From Rhodothermales bacterium (lineage in GTDB: Bacteria > Bacteroidota > Rhodothermia > Rhodothermales > UBA10348), in the NCBI GenBank assembly GCA_040221055.1, contig JAVJVN010000011.1, forward strand, positions 127,376 through 191,375: a DNA stretch of 64,000 nucleotides, written 5' to 3'. The position numbers and the translations under genes were made by a program. Below are positions 707-6,767 of this stretch, one piece after another. The notes beneath the pieces are model-generated. The model was given only the letters and a program-made list of their open reading frames with translations. It ran no database searches and had not been told where the DNA came from. The first letter of the stretch is position 1. Every line of letters starts with the position of its first letter.

Positions 707-2824
707 ATGAAAGTTTACGATGCCGACCATATCCGGAATGTTGCCCTGGTAGGACACCAGGGCAGCGGTAAAACCATGCTTGCCGAATCCATGCTCTACG
801 CCGCCGGGGCGTTGAAACGCATGGGTACCATTGAAGACGGAACGACGGTTTCCGACTACCACTCGAGTGAAAAGGAGCGCGGCATGTCCGTGTTTGCATC
901 GCTCATGCACGTGGAGTACCTGGGCAAGAAGATCAATGTGATCGACACGCCGGGCTACCCGGACTTCATGGGAGAGGTGTCTGCGTCCTTGCACGTGGTG
1001 GATTCTGCGCTTTTCGTCATCAACGCGGCAGAAGGGGTGCAGGTGGGTACTGAGTTGGCGTGGCAGGCGGCCGTCGACCAGGGTACGCCGTCCATGTTCG
1101 TCATCAACCAACTCGACCGGCCCGATACGGATTTCCGGGATGTGGTGTCCCAGATCAAGGATCGGTTCGGGCGGGGCGCGACGGTCGTCCAACTGCCGGT
1201 GGGTGCCGGGAAACGCGCCGTGATCGACGTGCTCCTCATGAAGCAGGTTTCGTTCGATGATCACGGCAAGATGACCGTGGGCCCCATCGATGCGGAATTC
1301 TCGGAAGAGGCGGACCAACTGCACAACGAACTCGTGGAGAACATCGCCGAGAACGACGAGAGCCTGATGGAGCTGTATTTCGAGCAGGGCGAACTCTCGG
1401 AGGACCAGATGCGGGCCGGACTTCGGGAAGCCATGATCCGGCATCAGTTGTTTCCCATCTTCCTGACCAGTGCCACGGCCAACATCGGAACGGCCCGGCT
1501 CATGGAATTCGTGGGCAACGTGTGTCCGACGCCGAACCAGATGCCGCCGGCCCGCCTGGCCGATGGCGGCACGATTGCGCCGGACTCCAGCGCCGAACCG
1601 GTGGCCCTCATTTACCGGACCATGTCGGAGTCGCACGTCGGTGACTTCTCGTTCTTCCGCGTGTATTCAGGCACGCTGCAGACGGGCATGGATCTGGTCA
1701 ACGCCGATACGGGCGTCACGGAACGCCTGGGACAACTCTATTCCATCAACGGTCACGAGCGCGACAGTGTGGAACGGATGTACGCGGGCGACCTGGGTGC
1801 GCTCGTCAAATTGAAGAACACCCATACGAACAATACCCTCCATGCCAAGGGCAGCAAGGCGGTCATGGAAAAGATTGAGTTCCCGGCCCCGCGGTTCTCG
1901 GCCGCCGTCGTACCCGCAAAGGAAGGAGAGGAAGACAAACTGGCTGCGGGACTGCATCAGCTGCACGAGGAAGACCCGTCGTTGCACATTGTCCACGATC
2001 AGCTGCTGGGCCAGCTCGTTATCCTGGGACAAGGGGACGTGCACCTCGATATCGCCAAATTCCGGCTGAAGAACCGGTTCGGCGTGGACGTGGAATACAC
2101 GAAACCGAAGGTGGCCTACCGGGAAACCGTCCAGAACCAGGCGCGCGCCAAGTACCGCCACAAGAAACAGACGGGTGGTGCAGGACAGTTCGCCGACATT
2201 GCCATCCTGGTCGAGCCGCTGAACGGTGATTTTGTCCCACCGGATGACATCAAAATGCGCGGCGAGCACACCGAAGAAACCTCTTGGGGGTCCAAGGTGC
2301 ATTTCGTGGACGGCATTGTGGGCGGTGTGATCGACATGCGCCGCTTCTTCGGAGCCATCCAGAAGGGGATCATGGAGGCCTGTCAGCGCGGGCCCGTGGC
2401 CGGTTATCCGGTCGGGGATGTCCGCGTGGTGGTGTACGATGGGGGAATGCATGCGGTGGATTCGAATGATGCCGCGTTCAAGACTGCGGCTCGCGCCTGC
2501 TTCCGCGATGCGTTCCGCCAGGCCAATCCGGTACTGATGGAGCCCATCCACGACGTGGAGGTCCTCATACCGGATTCCTATACGGGTGACGTCATGGGCG
2601 ACATGAACACGCGGCGCGCCCGCATCCAGGGAATCGAGACCGAAGGGCCGTTCCAGAAGGTCGTGGCCAAGGTGCCCGAGGCGGAATTGTACCGCTATTC
2701 CACATCGCTGAGGTCCATGACCCAGGGGCGCGGCCTGCATCGATCGAAGTTCGATTCGTATGAGGCCATGCCGCGTCACGTCCAGGAATCCGTGGCGGCT
2801 GAGGCACAAATCGAGGACGATTGA
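707..2824 (+). CDS. Elongation factor G-like translational GTPase (EF-G2 type)
   Basis: A 705-residue protein with full EF-G architecture. The G1 loop GHQGSGKT lies at residues 16-23, G3 reads DTPGYPDF near residue 84, G4 reads NQLD near residue 140, and domains II-V follow. Canonical EF-G has AHxDxGKT, DTPGH and NKxD. Variant G motifs of this kind mark the EF-G2/FusA2 paralogue clade rather than the housekeeping translocase. Family knowledge suggests ribosome-associated GTPase activity, but the role of this clade is not well defined. An in-frame ATG upstream at 674 would overlap the proposed promoter, so I chose 707, where the N-terminus matches family members. It is first of three closely spaced genes (31-bp and 13-bp gaps). 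Confidence 0.88.
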   Translation: MKVYDADHIRNVALVGHQGSGKTMLAESMLYAAGALKRMGTIEDGTTVSDYHSSEKERGMSVFASLMHVEYLGKKINVIDTPGYPDFMGEVSASLHVVDSALFVINAAEGVQVGTELAWQAAVDQGTPSMFVINQLDRPDTDFRDVVSQIKDRFGRGATVVQLPVGAGKRAVIDVLLMKQVSFDDHGKMTVGPIDAEFSEEADQLHNELVENIAENDESLMELYFEQGELSEDQMRAGLREAMIRHQLFPIFLTSATANIGTARLMEFVGNVCPTPNQMPPARLADGGTIAPDSSAEPVALIYRTMSESHVGDFSFFRVYSGTLQTGMDLVNADTGVTERLGQLYSINGHERDSVERMYAGDLGALVKLKNTHTNNTLHAKGSKAVMEKIEFPAPRFSAAVVPAKEGEEDKLAAGLHQLHEEDPSLHIVHDQLLGQLVILGQGDVHLDIAKFRLKNRFGVDVEYTKPKVAYRETVQNQARAKYRHKKQTGGAGQFADIAILVEPLNGDFVPPDDIKMRGEHTEETSWGSKVHFVDGIVGGVIDMRRFFGAIQKGIMEACQRGPVAGYPVGDVRVVVYDGGMHAVDSNDAAFKTAARACFRDAFRQANPVLMEPIHDVEVLIPDSYTGDVMGDMNTRRARIQGIETEGPFQKVVAKVPEAELYRYSTSLRSMTQGRGLHRSKFDSYEAMPRHVQESVAAEAQIEDD

Positions 2825-2855
2825 GTTTGGAGCCGGACACTGCTCCACGTCCGCC

Positions 2856-3899
2856 ATGTCCCGCAAGGAAATTCTTCGTCGTGTCTACGAAGAGAACAAA
2901 CGCATAAACGAAGATCGTCTGGGCGGGAGGGCCCCATACGGTCGTCGCGTCGCCGTGGGTGTGGGCGGATTCGGCATTCTGGTCGTCGTGCTGGTCGTGG
3001 CCATCATCAGTCTGACGGCCGATGATTCCTCGGAGCGACGGCGGTTGGCGGATGGCGCGACGGTGGGCGGCGGTCGTTCGGATGCGCGCCTGGAAATGCC
3101 GGTCCAACGCGATTCGGGATTGGTGGACCTGGAGTCGGTTGCGCCCGTCGGGCCGCCCGTGGGCAGCCTGGACGGTGCAGGAGTCCCGATGGCCGCCCTG
3201 TTCGATCTGGGGGTGCGGACCATTGTCCTTGACCCCGGGCATGGAGGGCGGGACGGGGGAACCGCCGGTGCGTCGGGACTGCTCGAGAAGGAGATCGTGC
3301 TCGACGTGGCCCGACGTCTGGAGCGCCGGTTGGAGCAGTCGGGACACTATGACGTGTTGCTGACGCGGACGGCGGATTCCACGCTTTCGCTCCGCCAGCG
3401 GGTGGAGTTTTCGAATGAGGTGGGCGCCGACCTGTTCATTTCGTTGCACGTGAACTGGTTTCCGTCGGACTCGGTGAATGCCATTGAGACCTATTACTTC
3501 GGGTCCCACTCCGACAATACAGTATTGCGTCTGGCAGAGCGGGAGAACCAGAATTCGGATTATTCGGTGGCGGAGTTCAACCGACTGATGTCAAACGTGG
3601 GAGAGCGTGTGAAAGGGGAAGAATCGCGCACCCTGGCGCTGGCCGTGCAGCGCAGCATCATCCGGAATACCCGGGAGCGGATTGGAGCCGTTCAGAATTG
3701 GGGGATCAAATCAGGTCCTTTCGTAGTGCTTGTAGGAACGGAAGCCCCTGGCATTCTTGCGGAAATTGGCGTACTTAGTAATGACGCCGAGGAATCCCGC
3801 CTGGCTACGGCGGAGTACCGGGAGCTGTTGGCCCTCTTCCTGGAGGAGGGCATAGTCAATTACCTGCAAACCCTGACGTCCGATACCCCGTCAGAGTAG
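2856..3899 (+). CDS. N-acetylmuramoyl-L-alanine amidase (Amidase_3), membrane-anchored
   Basis: A 347-residue protein with a basic N-terminus, one membrane segment at about residues 32-53, a low-complexity linker, and an Amidase_3 domain from about residue 122 to the end. Zinc ligands are recognisable in DPGHGG, the Glu of LLEKEIV and SLHVN, and the catalytic Glu is in LAEIGVLSN. It should cleave the amide between MurNAc and L-Ala in the periplasm, as AmiA/B/C do during daughter-cell separation. The start at 2856 is preferred over longer in-frame options because it gives a compact N-in signal anchor and lies 31 bp after the EF-G-like gene. The next gene, 13 bp downstream, encodes an actin-like protein, which suggests a shared role in cell wall or division. 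Confidence 0.88.
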   Translation: MSRKEILRRVYEENKRINEDRLGGRAPYGRRVAVGVGGFGILVVVLVVAIISLTADDSSERRRLADGATVGGGRSDARLEMPVQRDSGLVDLESVAPVGPPVGSLDGAGVPMAALFDLGVRTIVLDPGHGGRDGGTAGASGLLEKEIVLDVARRLERRLEQSGHYDVLLTRTADSTLSLRQRVEFSNEVGADLFISLHVNWFPSDSVNAIETYYFGSHSDNTVLRLAERENQNSDYSVAEFNRLMSNVGERVKGEESRTLALAVQRSIIRNTRERIGAVQNWGIKSGPFVVLVGTEAPGILAEIGVLSNDAEESRLATAEYRELLALFLEEGIVNYLQTLTSDTPSE

Positions 3900-3912
3900 A
3901 CAAAAACACATC

Positions 3913-4944
3913 ATGGCTGCGAAAAAGACGACTACTGCAAAAAAGGATACGCTGTACATTGGCATTGACCTGGGGACCTCCCGTAGCGCCATCGTGGCCA
4001 GCAATGGCAAACGCGACTGGGAACAGAGCTACGTCGGTTGGCCCAAGGACTTCGTGGCGCGCAAAATGCTCGGCAAGTCCATCCTGTTCGGTGAGGAAGC
4101 TGTCGAGCACCGGTTGTCACTGAATCTGTCGCGGCCGTTGGAGCAGGGCGTCATCCGGGATGGCACCGTCCGCGACGAGGAAGCGGTTCGCGAGTTGGTC
4201 CATCATCTCATCCAGAAAGTGAACCCCGGTTCGTCGACCGAGATTTTTGCCGCCGTCGGCGTCCCCGCCGAAGCGCTCCGCGTGAACAAGATGGCCATCC
4301 GGGATGCGGTAAAGGAATATGCCGACCGCCTGATGGTCGTCTCCGAGCCGTTTGCCGTGGCGTACGGGCTCGGCGTCCTGAACAACGCGCTGATCATAGA
4401 TATCGGCGCCGGTACCATGGACTTCTGCATCATGCATGGCACCATGCCGGGTGAGGAGGACCAGCGTACGCTCACCATGGCTGGCGACTGGATTGACCGC
4501 AATCTCATGGAGCTGCTGAAGGAGCGGCATCCCACGGCCCGCTTCTCTGAAACACTCGTCCGCGCCGCCAAGGAATCCGGTGGCTTCGTGGGCAGCGGCA
4601 AGAACCGCGTCAAGCTGAAGGTCCCGGTGGACGGGGTCTCCACGTCGCTCGACATCACGAATGAGATGCAGCGCGTGTGCGAAAGCCTGGTCCCGGCCAT
4701 GGCGGAAGCCGTCATGGATTTGATTTCCCGATACGAGCCGGACTTCCAGGACGAAGTCAAGCAGAACATCTTCCTGGCCGGCGGTGGCAGCCAGATCCGT
4801 GGCCTCGACCTCGCGCTGACCGATGCGCTCAAGGATTACGGCTCGTTCGCGGTGAACATTGTGGACGATCCGCTCTATTCGGGCGCGGAAGGCGCCCTCG
4901 CACTCGCTCAGGACATGCCGGACGAGTACTGGGAGGATATGTGA
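3913..4944 (+). CDS. MamK-like actin-family filament protein
   Basis: A 343-residue member of the actin/MreB/ParM superfamily. The phosphate-1 motif GIDLGTS is at residues 17-23, phosphate-2 DIGAGTMDF at about 163-171, and the adenosine motif LAGGGSQIRGL at about 288-298. Several stretches match my memory of the magnetosome actin MamK better than MreB: VVSEPF followed by AYGL, GTMPGEEDQRTLTMAG, QNIFLAGGGS, and a C-terminal MPDEYW. It is expected to bind ATP and form cytoplasmic filaments. No magnetosome gene is near. It lies 13 bp after a cell-wall amidase and is followed by a strong terminator. A lysine/threonine-rich tail of about 12 residues precedes the fold. Family assignment is firm; the exact clade needs a tree. 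Confidence 0.82.
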   Translation: MAAKKTTTAKKDTLYIGIDLGTSRSAIVASNGKRDWEQSYVGWPKDFVARKMLGKSILFGEEAVEHRLSLNLSRPLEQGVIRDGTVRDEEAVRELVHHLIQKVNPGSSTEIFAAVGVPAEALRVNKMAIRDAVKEYADRLMVVSEPFAVAYGLGVLNNALIIDIGAGTMDFCIMHGTMPGEEDQRTLTMAGDWIDRNLMELLKERHPTARFSETLVRAAKESGGFVGSGKNRVKLKVPVDGVSTSLDITNEMQRVCESLVPAMAEAVMDLISRYEPDFQDEVKQNIFLAGGGSQIRGLDLALTDALKDYGSFAVNIVDDPLYSGAEGALALAQDMPDEYWEDM

Positions 4945-4981
4945 TTCCGGACGGCCCGGTTCGCCGGGTGATTACCGAATG

Positions 4982-5021
4982 AAAAAGGCCCCTTCCGCAC
5001 GGAGTGGAAGGGGCCTTTTTT
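4982..5021 (+). terminator. Bidirectional rho-independent terminator
   Basis: A perfect 15-bp stem pairs 4982-4996 with 5006-5020 around a 9-nt loop. It is flanked by five A on the left and six T on the right. It can end the MamK-like operon on the plus strand, and on the minus strand the tRNA-Met transcript, whose 3' end is at 5026. Confidence 0.93.
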
Positions 5022-5025
5022 CGTG

Positions 5026-5099
5026 TGGCGAGAGAGAGACTTGAACTCTCGACCTCCGGGTTATGAATCCGACGCTCTAACCAGCTGAGCTACCTCGCC
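5026..5099 (-). tRNA. tRNA-Met (CAU anticodon)
   Basis: A 74-nt cloverleaf on the minus strand. The 7-bp acceptor stem GGCGAGG/TCTCGCC carries discriminator A. The D arm has GCTC/GAGC, and the anticodon loop TTCATAA gives CAU. The T arm is GAGAG-TTCAAGT-CTCTC. CCA is not encoded. The G1-C72 pair and the lack of the three-GC anticodon stem argue against initiator tRNA. A CAU tRNA read as Ile after lysidine modification cannot be excluded. There is an A-C mismatch at the base of the anticodon loop (31-39). Confidence 0.93.
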
Positions 5100-5230
5100 G
5101 TTCGGGCCCGAAATTACGGCTCCGGCCAGCAGAGGTCAACGCCCGATCCCATTGCGGGTTCTTCCTGAACGCTTCTTCACATGGCGTGGCCTTGTCGGGA
5201 TCCAAGTCTGCCCGCACTCGTCACACCGCC

Positions 5231-6388
5231 ATGTTCTGGAATCGACTCATCAATCAGGCGCGTGTGCGCGACGCGCTGAAGCGCGCGGTGGACAGCGAGC
5301 GGGTGGCCCACGCCTGGTTGTTCCACGGTCCGGACGGATCGGGAAAGCGGGCGGCGGCCATAGCGTTTGCTCAGATGCTCCAGTGCACGCAGCGTCAGGA
5401 CGGGCAAGCGTGTGGGGAGTGCCTGGCCTGTGACAAGGTCGCACGGCTCATCCACCCGGACGTCCACGTGCTCATGCCGCACACGAACGACGCCACAATG
5501 GACGATTTGAATGCTCGCGTGGCGCTTCTGGCGGAGTCTCCGTACGAAATCGTGGATTTCCAGCGGCGGCCGTCGCTCGACGGATCGGGAGGTGGGACGA
5601 ACAAACAGGTGGCCTATCTGGTGGATCGGGTCCAGGAGGACATCCGGCGTCCGATGGGCTATCGCCCGGCCGAGGGCGTGTACCGGATTGCCATCCTGTT
5701 GGATGCCGATCTCATGCGCACCGAGGCGGCGAATGCCTTCCTGAAGATGCTGGAAGAACCCGGACCGCAAACCGTGTTCATGCTCCTGACGAGTCGGCTC
5801 GACCACATGCTTCCGACCATCATGAGCCGATGCCAGCAGGTCCGTTTCGATCGACTCCATGCCGATGACATTGCCGCCGGTTTGGTGACGGAAGGACTGG
5901 CCGATGCAGATCTGGCCGGTGTCCTCGCGCGCATGGCCGATGGATCCTACAGCCTGGCCCGCTCCATGGCCCAGTCAGACGATCTGCGGGGCAGCCGGGA
6001 AGAGGTGCTGGATTTCCTGCGGCAATCGTATGTCGGAAACGGGCATGTCCTTTTGCAGAAGGTGGATGCCATGGCGAATATGGGCCGTGAACCCCTCAAA
6101 TTCGTGTTGCAGGTGCTGCTCGGCATGCTCCGCGACCTGTTGCTGCTCTCTGCCGCCGGACCGGACGCCCCCATCGTGAATGTGGATCGACGGGACGTGC
6201 TCCGGAAGTTCCTGGAAGGCCTGCCGGATGCCCGCCTTGAAACCATGATCGAGAGCGTGGAGCGGTCCATGATGCTCGTGGAGCGCAACACGAATGCACG
6301 TCTCTTGTTGTCGGTCCTGTCCATGTCCCTCGGAAAGGCCATGCGGGGCGACCGGGAGGCGTTGGTGCCGCTGTCGCTTACGGCTTGA
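5231..6388 (+). CDS. holB: DNA polymerase III delta' subunit (HolB)
   Basis: A 385-residue AAA+ clamp-loader subunit. The P-loop-like GPDGSGKR is at residues 33-40. A zinc module follows with C52, C61, C64 and C67. Further on are the conserved NAFLKMLEEPG, the sensor segment TSRLDHMLPTIMSRCQ with its SRC arginine finger, and a helical C-terminal collar. Delta' works with DnaX and HolA to load the sliding clamp on primed DNA. The start at 5231 gives the usual N-terminus (FWNRLINQ). An upstream in-frame ATG at 5186 adds residues unlike the family. The 3' end overlaps the convergent GroES-like gene by 11 bp. Confidence 0.9.
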   Translation: MFWNRLINQARVRDALKRAVDSERVAHAWLFHGPDGSGKRAAAIAFAQMLQCTQRQDGQACGECLACDKVARLIHPDVHVLMPHTNDATMDDLNARVALLAESPYEIVDFQRRPSLDGSGGGTNKQVAYLVDRVQEDIRRPMGYRPAEGVYRIAILLDADLMRTEAANAFLKMLEEPGPQTVFMLLTSRLDHMLPTIMSRCQQVRFDRLHADDIAAGLVTEGLADADLAGVLARMADGSYSLARSMAQSDDLRGSREEVLDFLRQSYVGNGHVLLQKVDAMANMGREPLKFVLQVLLGMLRDLLLLSAAGPDAPIVNVDRRDVLRKFLEGLPDARLETMIESVERSMMLVERNTNARLLLSVLSMSLGKAMRGDREALVPLSLTA

Positions 6389-6767
6389 GCGAGCCGAGGA
6401 TGTCGTCGGCCGACGGGCGCACGAGGGCGAGGATGGCACCGTGGGGGACAATCAGGAAGGCATCGCCTTCAAACTCGATTTCGATGGCTTCCTTGCGGAG
6501 GAACCACGCGGTGTCGCCTTTCTGGGCCTGCAGCGGCAGGTAGCGTACGGCCTCGCCGCCTCGCGACCACGGCTCACCCTCTGAGAATTCCGGATTCGGC
6601 GTGACGTAGCCCGGTCCGACGCTGATCACCGTTCCACCCTGGACGCGCTCTTTCTCGGCGACCGATGCGGGCAGGACGAGTCCGGACGAGGTCTTGCGTT
6701 CGCCCTGGTCCGGAGACACCAGGACACGGTCTCCGACCATGATCAGTTCACGCATCCTGTTGGCCAT
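6378..6767 (-). CDS. GroES/Cpn10-family protein, solo and slightly enlarged
   Basis: A 129-residue protein with the Cpn10 core: DRVLVSP at the start, a mobile-loop-like SSGLVLP followed by AEKERVQGG, then GTVISVGPG, KGDTAWF, and a final ILALVRPS. GroES is normally 95-100 residues. Here there is an insertion of roughly 20 residues between the GPG turn and the KGD strand, plus a short C-terminal tail. GroES caps the GroEL chamber. No groEL lies beside it, and the housekeeping groES is usually next to groEL, so this looks like a second, specialised co-chaperonin. An alternative start is the ATG for MRELIMVG at 6755. It overlaps holB tail to tail. Confidence 0.78.
   Translation of the reverse strand: MANRMRELIMVGDRVLVSPDQGERKTSSGLVLPASVAEKERVQGGTVISVGPGYVTPNPEFSEGEPWSRGGEAVRYLPLQAQKGDTAWFLRKEAIEIEFEGDAFLIVPHGAILALVRPSADDILGSLKP

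Follow-up and report, generated by a model that had tools for sequence, protein, structure and literature searches.

Bacterial actins guide the synthesis of the cell wall (MreB) and division (FtsA), and we know of no bacterial actin that is wired to a wall hydrolase through a single membrane-spanning polypeptide. The window analysed here, the whole of a 64,000-nucleotide stretch of a contig from a Rhodothermales bacterium, carries an actin gene directly behind the gene of an N-acetylmuramoyl-L-alanine amidase. This arrangement raises the questions of which kind of actin is encoded, whether the pairing is more than an accident of gene order and what the two proteins could be doing together. An earlier note, made from the sequence alone, had proposed a MamK-like actin, perhaps an ancestral or a sister filament, employed outside a magnetosome context, in cell-envelope or division work.

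Identity of the actin

The actin gene (3913–4944, + strand) opens with an ATG and encodes 343 amino acids. Its translation contains the segments GTMPGEEDQ, VVSEPFAVAYGL and, at the C-terminus, MPDEYW, all of which the earlier note had cited as being of the MamK type. Family models point the same way. The NCBIfam MamK model NF040964 ranks first with 403.5 bits (cut-off 400), which places the protein in the MamK superfamily, and the scores obtained with the BeeR model (217.5 bits, cut-off 530) and the MreB model (94.6 bits, cut-off 293) exclude it from both of these families; the FtsA model yields 21.7 bits, and the 17 NCBIfam matches (E 0.1) include no ParM model. The closest solved chain is that of MamK 5ljw (E 6.8e-84), with 333 residues aligned without gaps at 41% identity. 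Likewise, the AF2 model of the actin (pLDDT 89.6, the low-confidence N-terminus being limited to residues 1–10) is closest in fold to MamK 5ljv (Z 42.3, rmsd 1.6, 325 aligned), followed by BeeR (Z 39.5, rmsd 2.8, 328 aligned) and MreB (Z 33.1, rmsd 2.6, 315 aligned). The proposal of a MamK-like rather than an MreB-like protein is therefore upheld by scores, solved structure and fold, and also by the trees described below. The only other actin-type match in the same genome (E 10) is a separate MreB-like gene, 27% identical. The 'MamK family' model NF040964 accepts many amidase-linked actins above its cut-off and others score just under it, so such actins are likely to be annotated, and probably misread, as MamK in many public genomes.

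Organization of the operon

The amidase gene (2856–3899, + strand; 347 amino acids) is the first of the pair. Its stop codon ends at 3899 and is separated from the actin ATG at 3913 by a spacer of 13 nucleotides (3900–3912, + strand), precisely the distance that had been claimed. The first possible start of the amidase frame lies at 2760; the ATG at 2856 is preferred because, in three close relatives (L039, L040 and L042), the open frame extends only five codons upstream of a GTG located at the same SRKE. Just 3' of the actin, a strong hairpin whose 3' arm contains a T run (4981–5021, + strand; -32 kcal/mol, z -6.8) stands between the actin and a tRNA-Met gene on the opposite strand. This hairpin, which the consensus scan does not list, is probably an intrinsic terminator that closes the operon. 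A search for a sigma-70-like promoter in 2400–5400 found none, the scan being uninformative for this bacterial group.

Upstream of the amidase lies a gene for an EF-G2-like GTPase (674–2824, + strand), which carries Pfam EF-G domains and matches NCBIfam elongation factor G / EF-G2 models, and to which the actin had also been linked. This part of the proposal is not supported. Of the 20 genomic regions fetched for comparison, 10 have EF-G2 adjoining the amidase, all of them within the window's family, where an eleventh region (L044) lies on a contig too short to judge; it was not found in any of the nine regions outside that family, one of which (L055) is on a contig too short to tell. EF-G2 was therefore rejected as a member of the conserved unit and is regarded as a neighbour within the window's family only. 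Further downstream, a Cpn10-like gene (Pfam; 6378–6767, - strand) was observed beside a gene that by eye is glycosyltransferase-like, and the corresponding regions of the closest relatives (L039–L042) gave no match to Cpn10.

Conservation of the actin–amidase pair

The link to the amidase, in contrast to that with EF-G2, is real and conserved across phyla. The actin is present in 20 of 60 genomes (the window's own and 59 relatives; E 1e-40 or better), the copies of the relatives being 60–80% identical to it, and in every one of these 20 genomes an amidase that matches closely (E 3.9e-60 or better) is positioned beside the actin. The 40 genomes without the actin have either a distant amidase only (37 genomes, E 1.3e-34 or worse) or none (three genomes, E 1e-15), such that actin and close amidase are jointly present or jointly absent in 60 of 60 genomes. 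The 20 fetched regions, drawn from 19 genomes (one contig carries the locus twice), without exception have the amidase immediately before the actin and in the same orientation, even where all other tested neighbours differ. The contig with two copies (C91 of G002) holds whole-locus copies, L040 and L041, in opposite orientation and with equal identities to the window, and represents either an inverted duplication or an assembly artefact. When a sample of the phylum was searched with the MamK model, 16 of 394 genomes matched (E 1e-50), all 16 from the window's order, with seven over the MamK cut-off and the other nine at 371–398 bits.

A scan of genome_contigs, for which four such actins were aligned with MamK as the query, returned 267 relatives, of which the best 80, mostly MAG records, were examined. 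By our own grouping these comprise 26 loci from Rhodothermales, 29 Desulfobacterota-like, 14 from Nitrospirota, nine from Proteobacteria and two from Aminicenantes, with two of them (L092 and L094) sharing one contig. An amidase homologue stands upstream of the actin in 80 of these best 80 of 267, its frame being broken in two (L104 and L137), and this recurrence takes the pairing beyond chance. As the closest 80 of 267, they bias the count towards near relatives, and broader groups were therefore sampled with the MamK model, using flanks of at most 1.5 kb, shorter at contig ends. In Nitrospirota, 30 of 245 genomes match, and the amidase accompanies 17 of 17 actins that are 51.6–56.6% identical to that of the window but none of the 13 at 40–46%. 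The same division is seen in Desulfobacterota (15 of 345 genomes match; amidase in 3/3 at 54% identity or more, 0/12 at 50% or less) and in Gammaproteobacteria (16 of 369; 5/7 at 52% or more, 0/9 at 42% or less), and the single match among 337 alphaproteobacterial genomes is the starting genome itself, with a broken amidase frame. Pooled with the 20 genomes of the order, an amidase is found in 46 of 48 genomes with an actin at least 51% identical and in none of 34 below that value. Two gammaproteobacterial loci lack an intact neighbouring amidase: L249 retains the tail motif described below and transmembrane remnants in two frames before the actin (L249:900–1560) with no amidase domain, and at L251 the 1.5 kb around the actin contain no amidase at all. 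The actin can thus persist without the enzyme.

The spacing between the two genes is mostly -62 to +74 nucleotides, often overlapping, with two loci at 179 and 366. The module spans at least five lineages among the loci read, and actin and amidase are the only families recurring in all five; there is no third conserved partner. A receiver-domain-like protein follows downstream in 11 of 14 Nitrospirota loci, and a promiscuous sensor-like family occurs in 12 loci from four lineages. Distance matrices of actin and amidase, compared over 72 of the 80 pairs, correlate at r = 0.94, a value that none of 999 permutations reached. This shows that the two travel together rather than that they bind; shared descent alone could also yield such a value. 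A plasmid search with the window's actin matched 15 records, all below 30% identity and MreB-like where annotated, and one with BeeR gave no matches.

Placement within the actin superfamily

Two trees of 82 rows each were built after L104, L145, near-duplicates and many rows resembling others had been set aside, and they hold no rows for ParM, FtsA or Alp proteins; two of the tree rows (L236 and L237) have an odd letter make-up. In the first tree, the window's actin lies inside a clade of 25 Rhodothermales rows (support 100/99) within an amidase-linked group (73/90), with the AMB-1 MamK on a lone long branch. In the second, which includes more MamK-type actins, a branch with support 91/93.6, which is not starred, separates the amidase-linked rows, together with L249 and L251, from all others, and the window's actin belongs to two starred sets, one of 11 rows (100/99) and one of 18 rows (99/94), neither of which contains MamK. 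Five MreB rows form a separate clade far outside (100/100), so the window's actin is not inside the MreB clade, and BeeR, on a long branch, is also placed outside the MamK-type rows (88/93). The MamK proteins of probable magnetotactic bacteria appear in two places of this tree, 12 Nitrospirota and Desulfobacterota rows forming a clade (100/100) and proteobacterial MamK standing elsewhere, with non-amidase actins (95/100).

These groupings appear to define a large amidase-linked branch of the MamK superfamily, no description of which was found in the literature searched (mostly non-subscription papers, with preprints outside the search). Nor was a MamK paired with an N-acetylmuramoyl-L-alanine amidase found there, most subscription papers also lying outside its scope, and the only co-mention of MamK and an amidase came from work on locust immunity. 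The amidase-linked branch supplies sister sequences for the question of how MamK originated.

Magnetosome context as judged by MamM

Since the NCBI MamK model calls the window's actin MamK (403.5 vs 400 bits), it could be argued that the protein is a MamK relic of magnetosome-like organelle positioning or still takes part in it. A MamM model, applied genome-wide with a cut-off of 350 bits as the magnetosome marker, speaks against this. None of 52 branch genomes exceeds the cut-off (0/23 in a first set and 0/29 in a second, including those of L249 and L251), and the best MamM score in the window's genome is 106 bits, whereas the controls are positive in four of four MamK-bearing Nitrospirota and in four of five strong-MamK Gammaproteobacteria, the fifth reaching 307.5 bits in a reading frame interrupted by a stop codon. 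In one Nitrospirota MamK region (L213), MamM scores 388.7 bits and is accompanied by weaker matches to MamP, MamB, MamE and MamQ (10 ORFs scanned). The marker is not fully sensitive, because two Desulfobacterota genomes whose actins group with MamK (G1014 and G1051) score 230 and 226 bits and are missed by the cut-off, a point in favour of the organelle reading. Against it, the MamK-type loci sampled outside the branch have neither the amidase nor the strict tail motif described below. Together, these observations make a magnetosome-related role highly improbable, and the view that this actin sits outside a magnetosome context is borne out by this single marker. Neither by genome context, as judged from one gene, MamM, nor by its grouping in the second tree is the window's actin a MamK in the strict sense.

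The amidase and its conserved tail

The product of the upstream gene belongs to the Amidase_3 family of Pfam (E 7.5e-42; 143.7 bits against a gathering score of 27) and consists of an N-terminal tail, a transmembrane helix (2967–3017, + strand; approximately residues 38–54, an AF2 helix that coincides with a hydrophobic segment in relatives) and a catalytic domain (3213–3881, + strand; residues 120–342). Within the latter, H129, E144, H198 and E303, which we take to be the catalytic residues, are invariant in 34 aligned sequences, and the model is closest to AmiA (8c2o, Z 30.2) and then to AmiC (4bin, Z 28.1). The E. coli enzymes AmiA, AmiB and AmiC are soluble periplasmic proteins; the window's amidase has a catalytic fold in common with them but differs in possessing a membrane anchor and a conserved N-terminal tail. 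In the AF2 model, the tail forms a helix at residues 3–22 (pLDDT ~85), and confidence is low at 59–89 and 95–115, the predicted periplasmic linker. This architecture, together with basic residues before the transmembrane helix, argues for a tail that lies in the cytoplasm.

The tail harbours a motif, ILRRVYEENKRI (2871–2906, + strand; residues 6–17), with the consensus IL[RKQ]x[VI]YE[ED]Nx[RK][IL]. In an alignment of 98 complete amidase copies, built without use of the motif and from which L095, L104, L105 and L137 of the original 102 had been dropped (contig edge or broken frame), residues 6–18 are as conserved as the catalytic domain (2.58 and 2.57 bits per column, respectively), whereas the regions between them are not (linker 0.75, transmembrane helix 0.97, periplasmic linker 0.70). 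As seven of the 98 are more than 95% identical to another, some being the same gene twice, the values were recounted on 91 distinct copies, giving 2.57 for the tail, 0.73, 0.95 and 0.69 for the same three regions and 2.56 for the catalytic domain. N14 is present in 90 of 90 filled rows of this distinct set. A relaxed form of the motif can be recognized in all but two copies (96 of 98; 89 of 91 distinct), the exceptions being L101, which a contig edge truncates, and L202, a variant; in G010 (L102) an A replaces the Y, and the amidase of Roseithermus sacchariphilus (L100) has two consecutive copies of the motif.

Among the amidases checked, the motif is restricted to those linked to the actin. 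It is absent from 10 of 10 unlinked amidases taken from actin-less genomes of the order, and from the transmembrane-anchored, 38% identical amidase of one relative without the actin (G059). The strict motif has no match in 127,363 amino acids around 40 non-amidase actin loci; of 25 amidase-linked loci, 18 contain it, in each case within the amidase frame. The exact pattern V-Y-E-[DE]-N matches two sites in the window's genome and its reversed control one; the second site, in what by eye is the C-terminus of a pyruvate dehydrogenase E1-like protein, was considered as a further client of the motif and rejected as probably due to chance.

On the side of the actin, seven positions (W36, W43, F47, G84, V92, V115 and A132) are branch-specific, defined as being present in at least 95% of 127 branch rows and at most 15% of 34 other MamK-type actins. 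Three of these, W36, W43 and F47, occur in at least 98% of the branch rows, some of which share a genome, and in 0–9% of the others; they constitute a candidate docking patch for the tail.

Conservation and co-occurrence thus point to a tail that probably docks on the actin, and, if it does, a cytoplasmic actin would position or control wall hydrolysis in the periplasm. Operon neighbours need not interact, and the pairing could instead reflect co-expression only, with the tail binding some other cytoplasmic partner of the divisome or elongasome and the actin working elsewhere; the actin of L251, with no amidase within 1.5 kb, would fit such an arrangement. Three observations weigh against it, namely the absence of the motif from the 10 unlinked amidases and the 40 non-amidase actin loci, the joint presence or absence of actin and close amidase in 60 of 60 genomes, and the retention of tail remnants without an enzyme domain in L249. 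Co-expression without contact is accordingly considered a distinctly unlikely explanation.

A proposed filament–amidase module

The reading that we consider probable is a module in which the tail of the amidase is docked on the actin filament and the filament controls where the wall is cut. The actin would polymerize in the cytoplasm, as MamK does, and the amidase would cross the inner membrane once, by a transmembrane helix that joins its cytoplasmic tail to a disordered linker in the periplasm and, beyond this, to a domain of AmiA/AmiC type that faces the peptidoglycan. Docking of the conserved 12-residue tail helix would then create a link made of one polypeptide, from the filament through tail helix and membrane to the amidase, and the position or assembly of the filament would set the place, and perhaps the moment, at which peptide stems are removed from peptidoglycan. 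Division and cell shaping are candidate settings for such steered cutting. The envelope or division role suggested by the earlier note is consistent with this scheme, although it is deduced from the partner and the tail of the partner. If correct, the pair would be a case of a cytoskeletal filament steering the site of wall cutting in apparently non-magnetic bacteria, and the tail a short docking motif open to test.

The same docking could serve another use. FtsEX–EnvC activates AmiA and AmiB across the membrane, and the filament might similarly be an allosteric switch that activates the amidase from the cytoplasmic side, rather than a positional scaffold. The AmiA/AmiC-like character of the catalytic domain fits this, as does its length of 211 residues compared with the 172 positions of the Pfam profile; two helices of the model (221–230 and 238–249) mark a candidate site of a regulatory insertion. 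However, the long disordered periplasmic linker (59–89 and 95–115; 0.70 bits per column) would be a poor lever for a signal, and a switch is judged unlikely, if less so than co-expression alone.

Comparison with known systems

The proposed positional module resembles MreB–RodZ, in which an actin filament is tied to wall work via a bitopic membrane protein, with the difference that in this pair a wall enzyme would double as the membrane linker; the window's genome also has its own MreB-like gene besides the paired actin. With MamK (5ljv, 5ljw, 5jyg), the window's actin has in common its superfamily, its fold and the ungapped alignment at 41% identity, and it is set apart by its separate branch, its operon with an amidase, a MamM score below the cut-off and the residues W36, W43 and F47. 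A wider and more speculative scenario, which we hold to be possible but rather doubtful, is that a widespread two-component machine exists in which an actin filament directly steers an amidase via a tail helix, and that MamK was recruited from this machine, or from a common ancestor, by exchange of the membrane partner.

Among the literature searched, the nearest published relatives without a magnetosome role are BeeR and Bbp. BeeR of Verrucomicrobiota (PDB 8r2n) is, like the window's actin, MamK-related and from non-magnetotactic bacteria; it is reported to have no known function and a disordered N-terminal extension of 30–50 amino acids (PMC11929497). The window's actin lacks an extension of this kind, reaches 217.5 of the 530 bits required by the BeeR model and belongs to the MamK-type rows, outside which BeeR falls. 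Bbp (big bacteria protein) is described in the main text of its report as a MamK-like actin of non-magnetotactic Desulfobacterota and Gammaproteobacteria, whose cluster in Ca. Electrothrix gigas contains a hypothetical and a Kelch protein, with an amidase unmentioned in that main text (PMC10580974). Compared by this published description, Bbp and the window's actin are both MamK-like and outside magnetosomes, but their neighbours differ.

Several further MamK-type actins were encountered in the course of the broader sampling. One genome (G917) has a MamM of 405 bits on another contig and two MamK-type actins (L215 and L216) outside a visible mam island, which by eye neighbour response-regulator-like and ClpX-like genes in one case and a CheW-like gene in the other. 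Two others (G1154 and G1310), with no MamM-like match at E 1e-55, carry tandem MamK-type actins (L220, L234, L221 and L235) that score 482–494 bits on the MamK model and lie near a protein with, by eye, a membrane helix and a coiled coil. Finally, four gammaproteobacterial MamK-type actins (L250, L252, L253 and L255), 39–42% identical to that of the window, are each encoded after a small protein that seems to have a transmembrane helix and a coiled coil, and these possibly represent the Bbp group.
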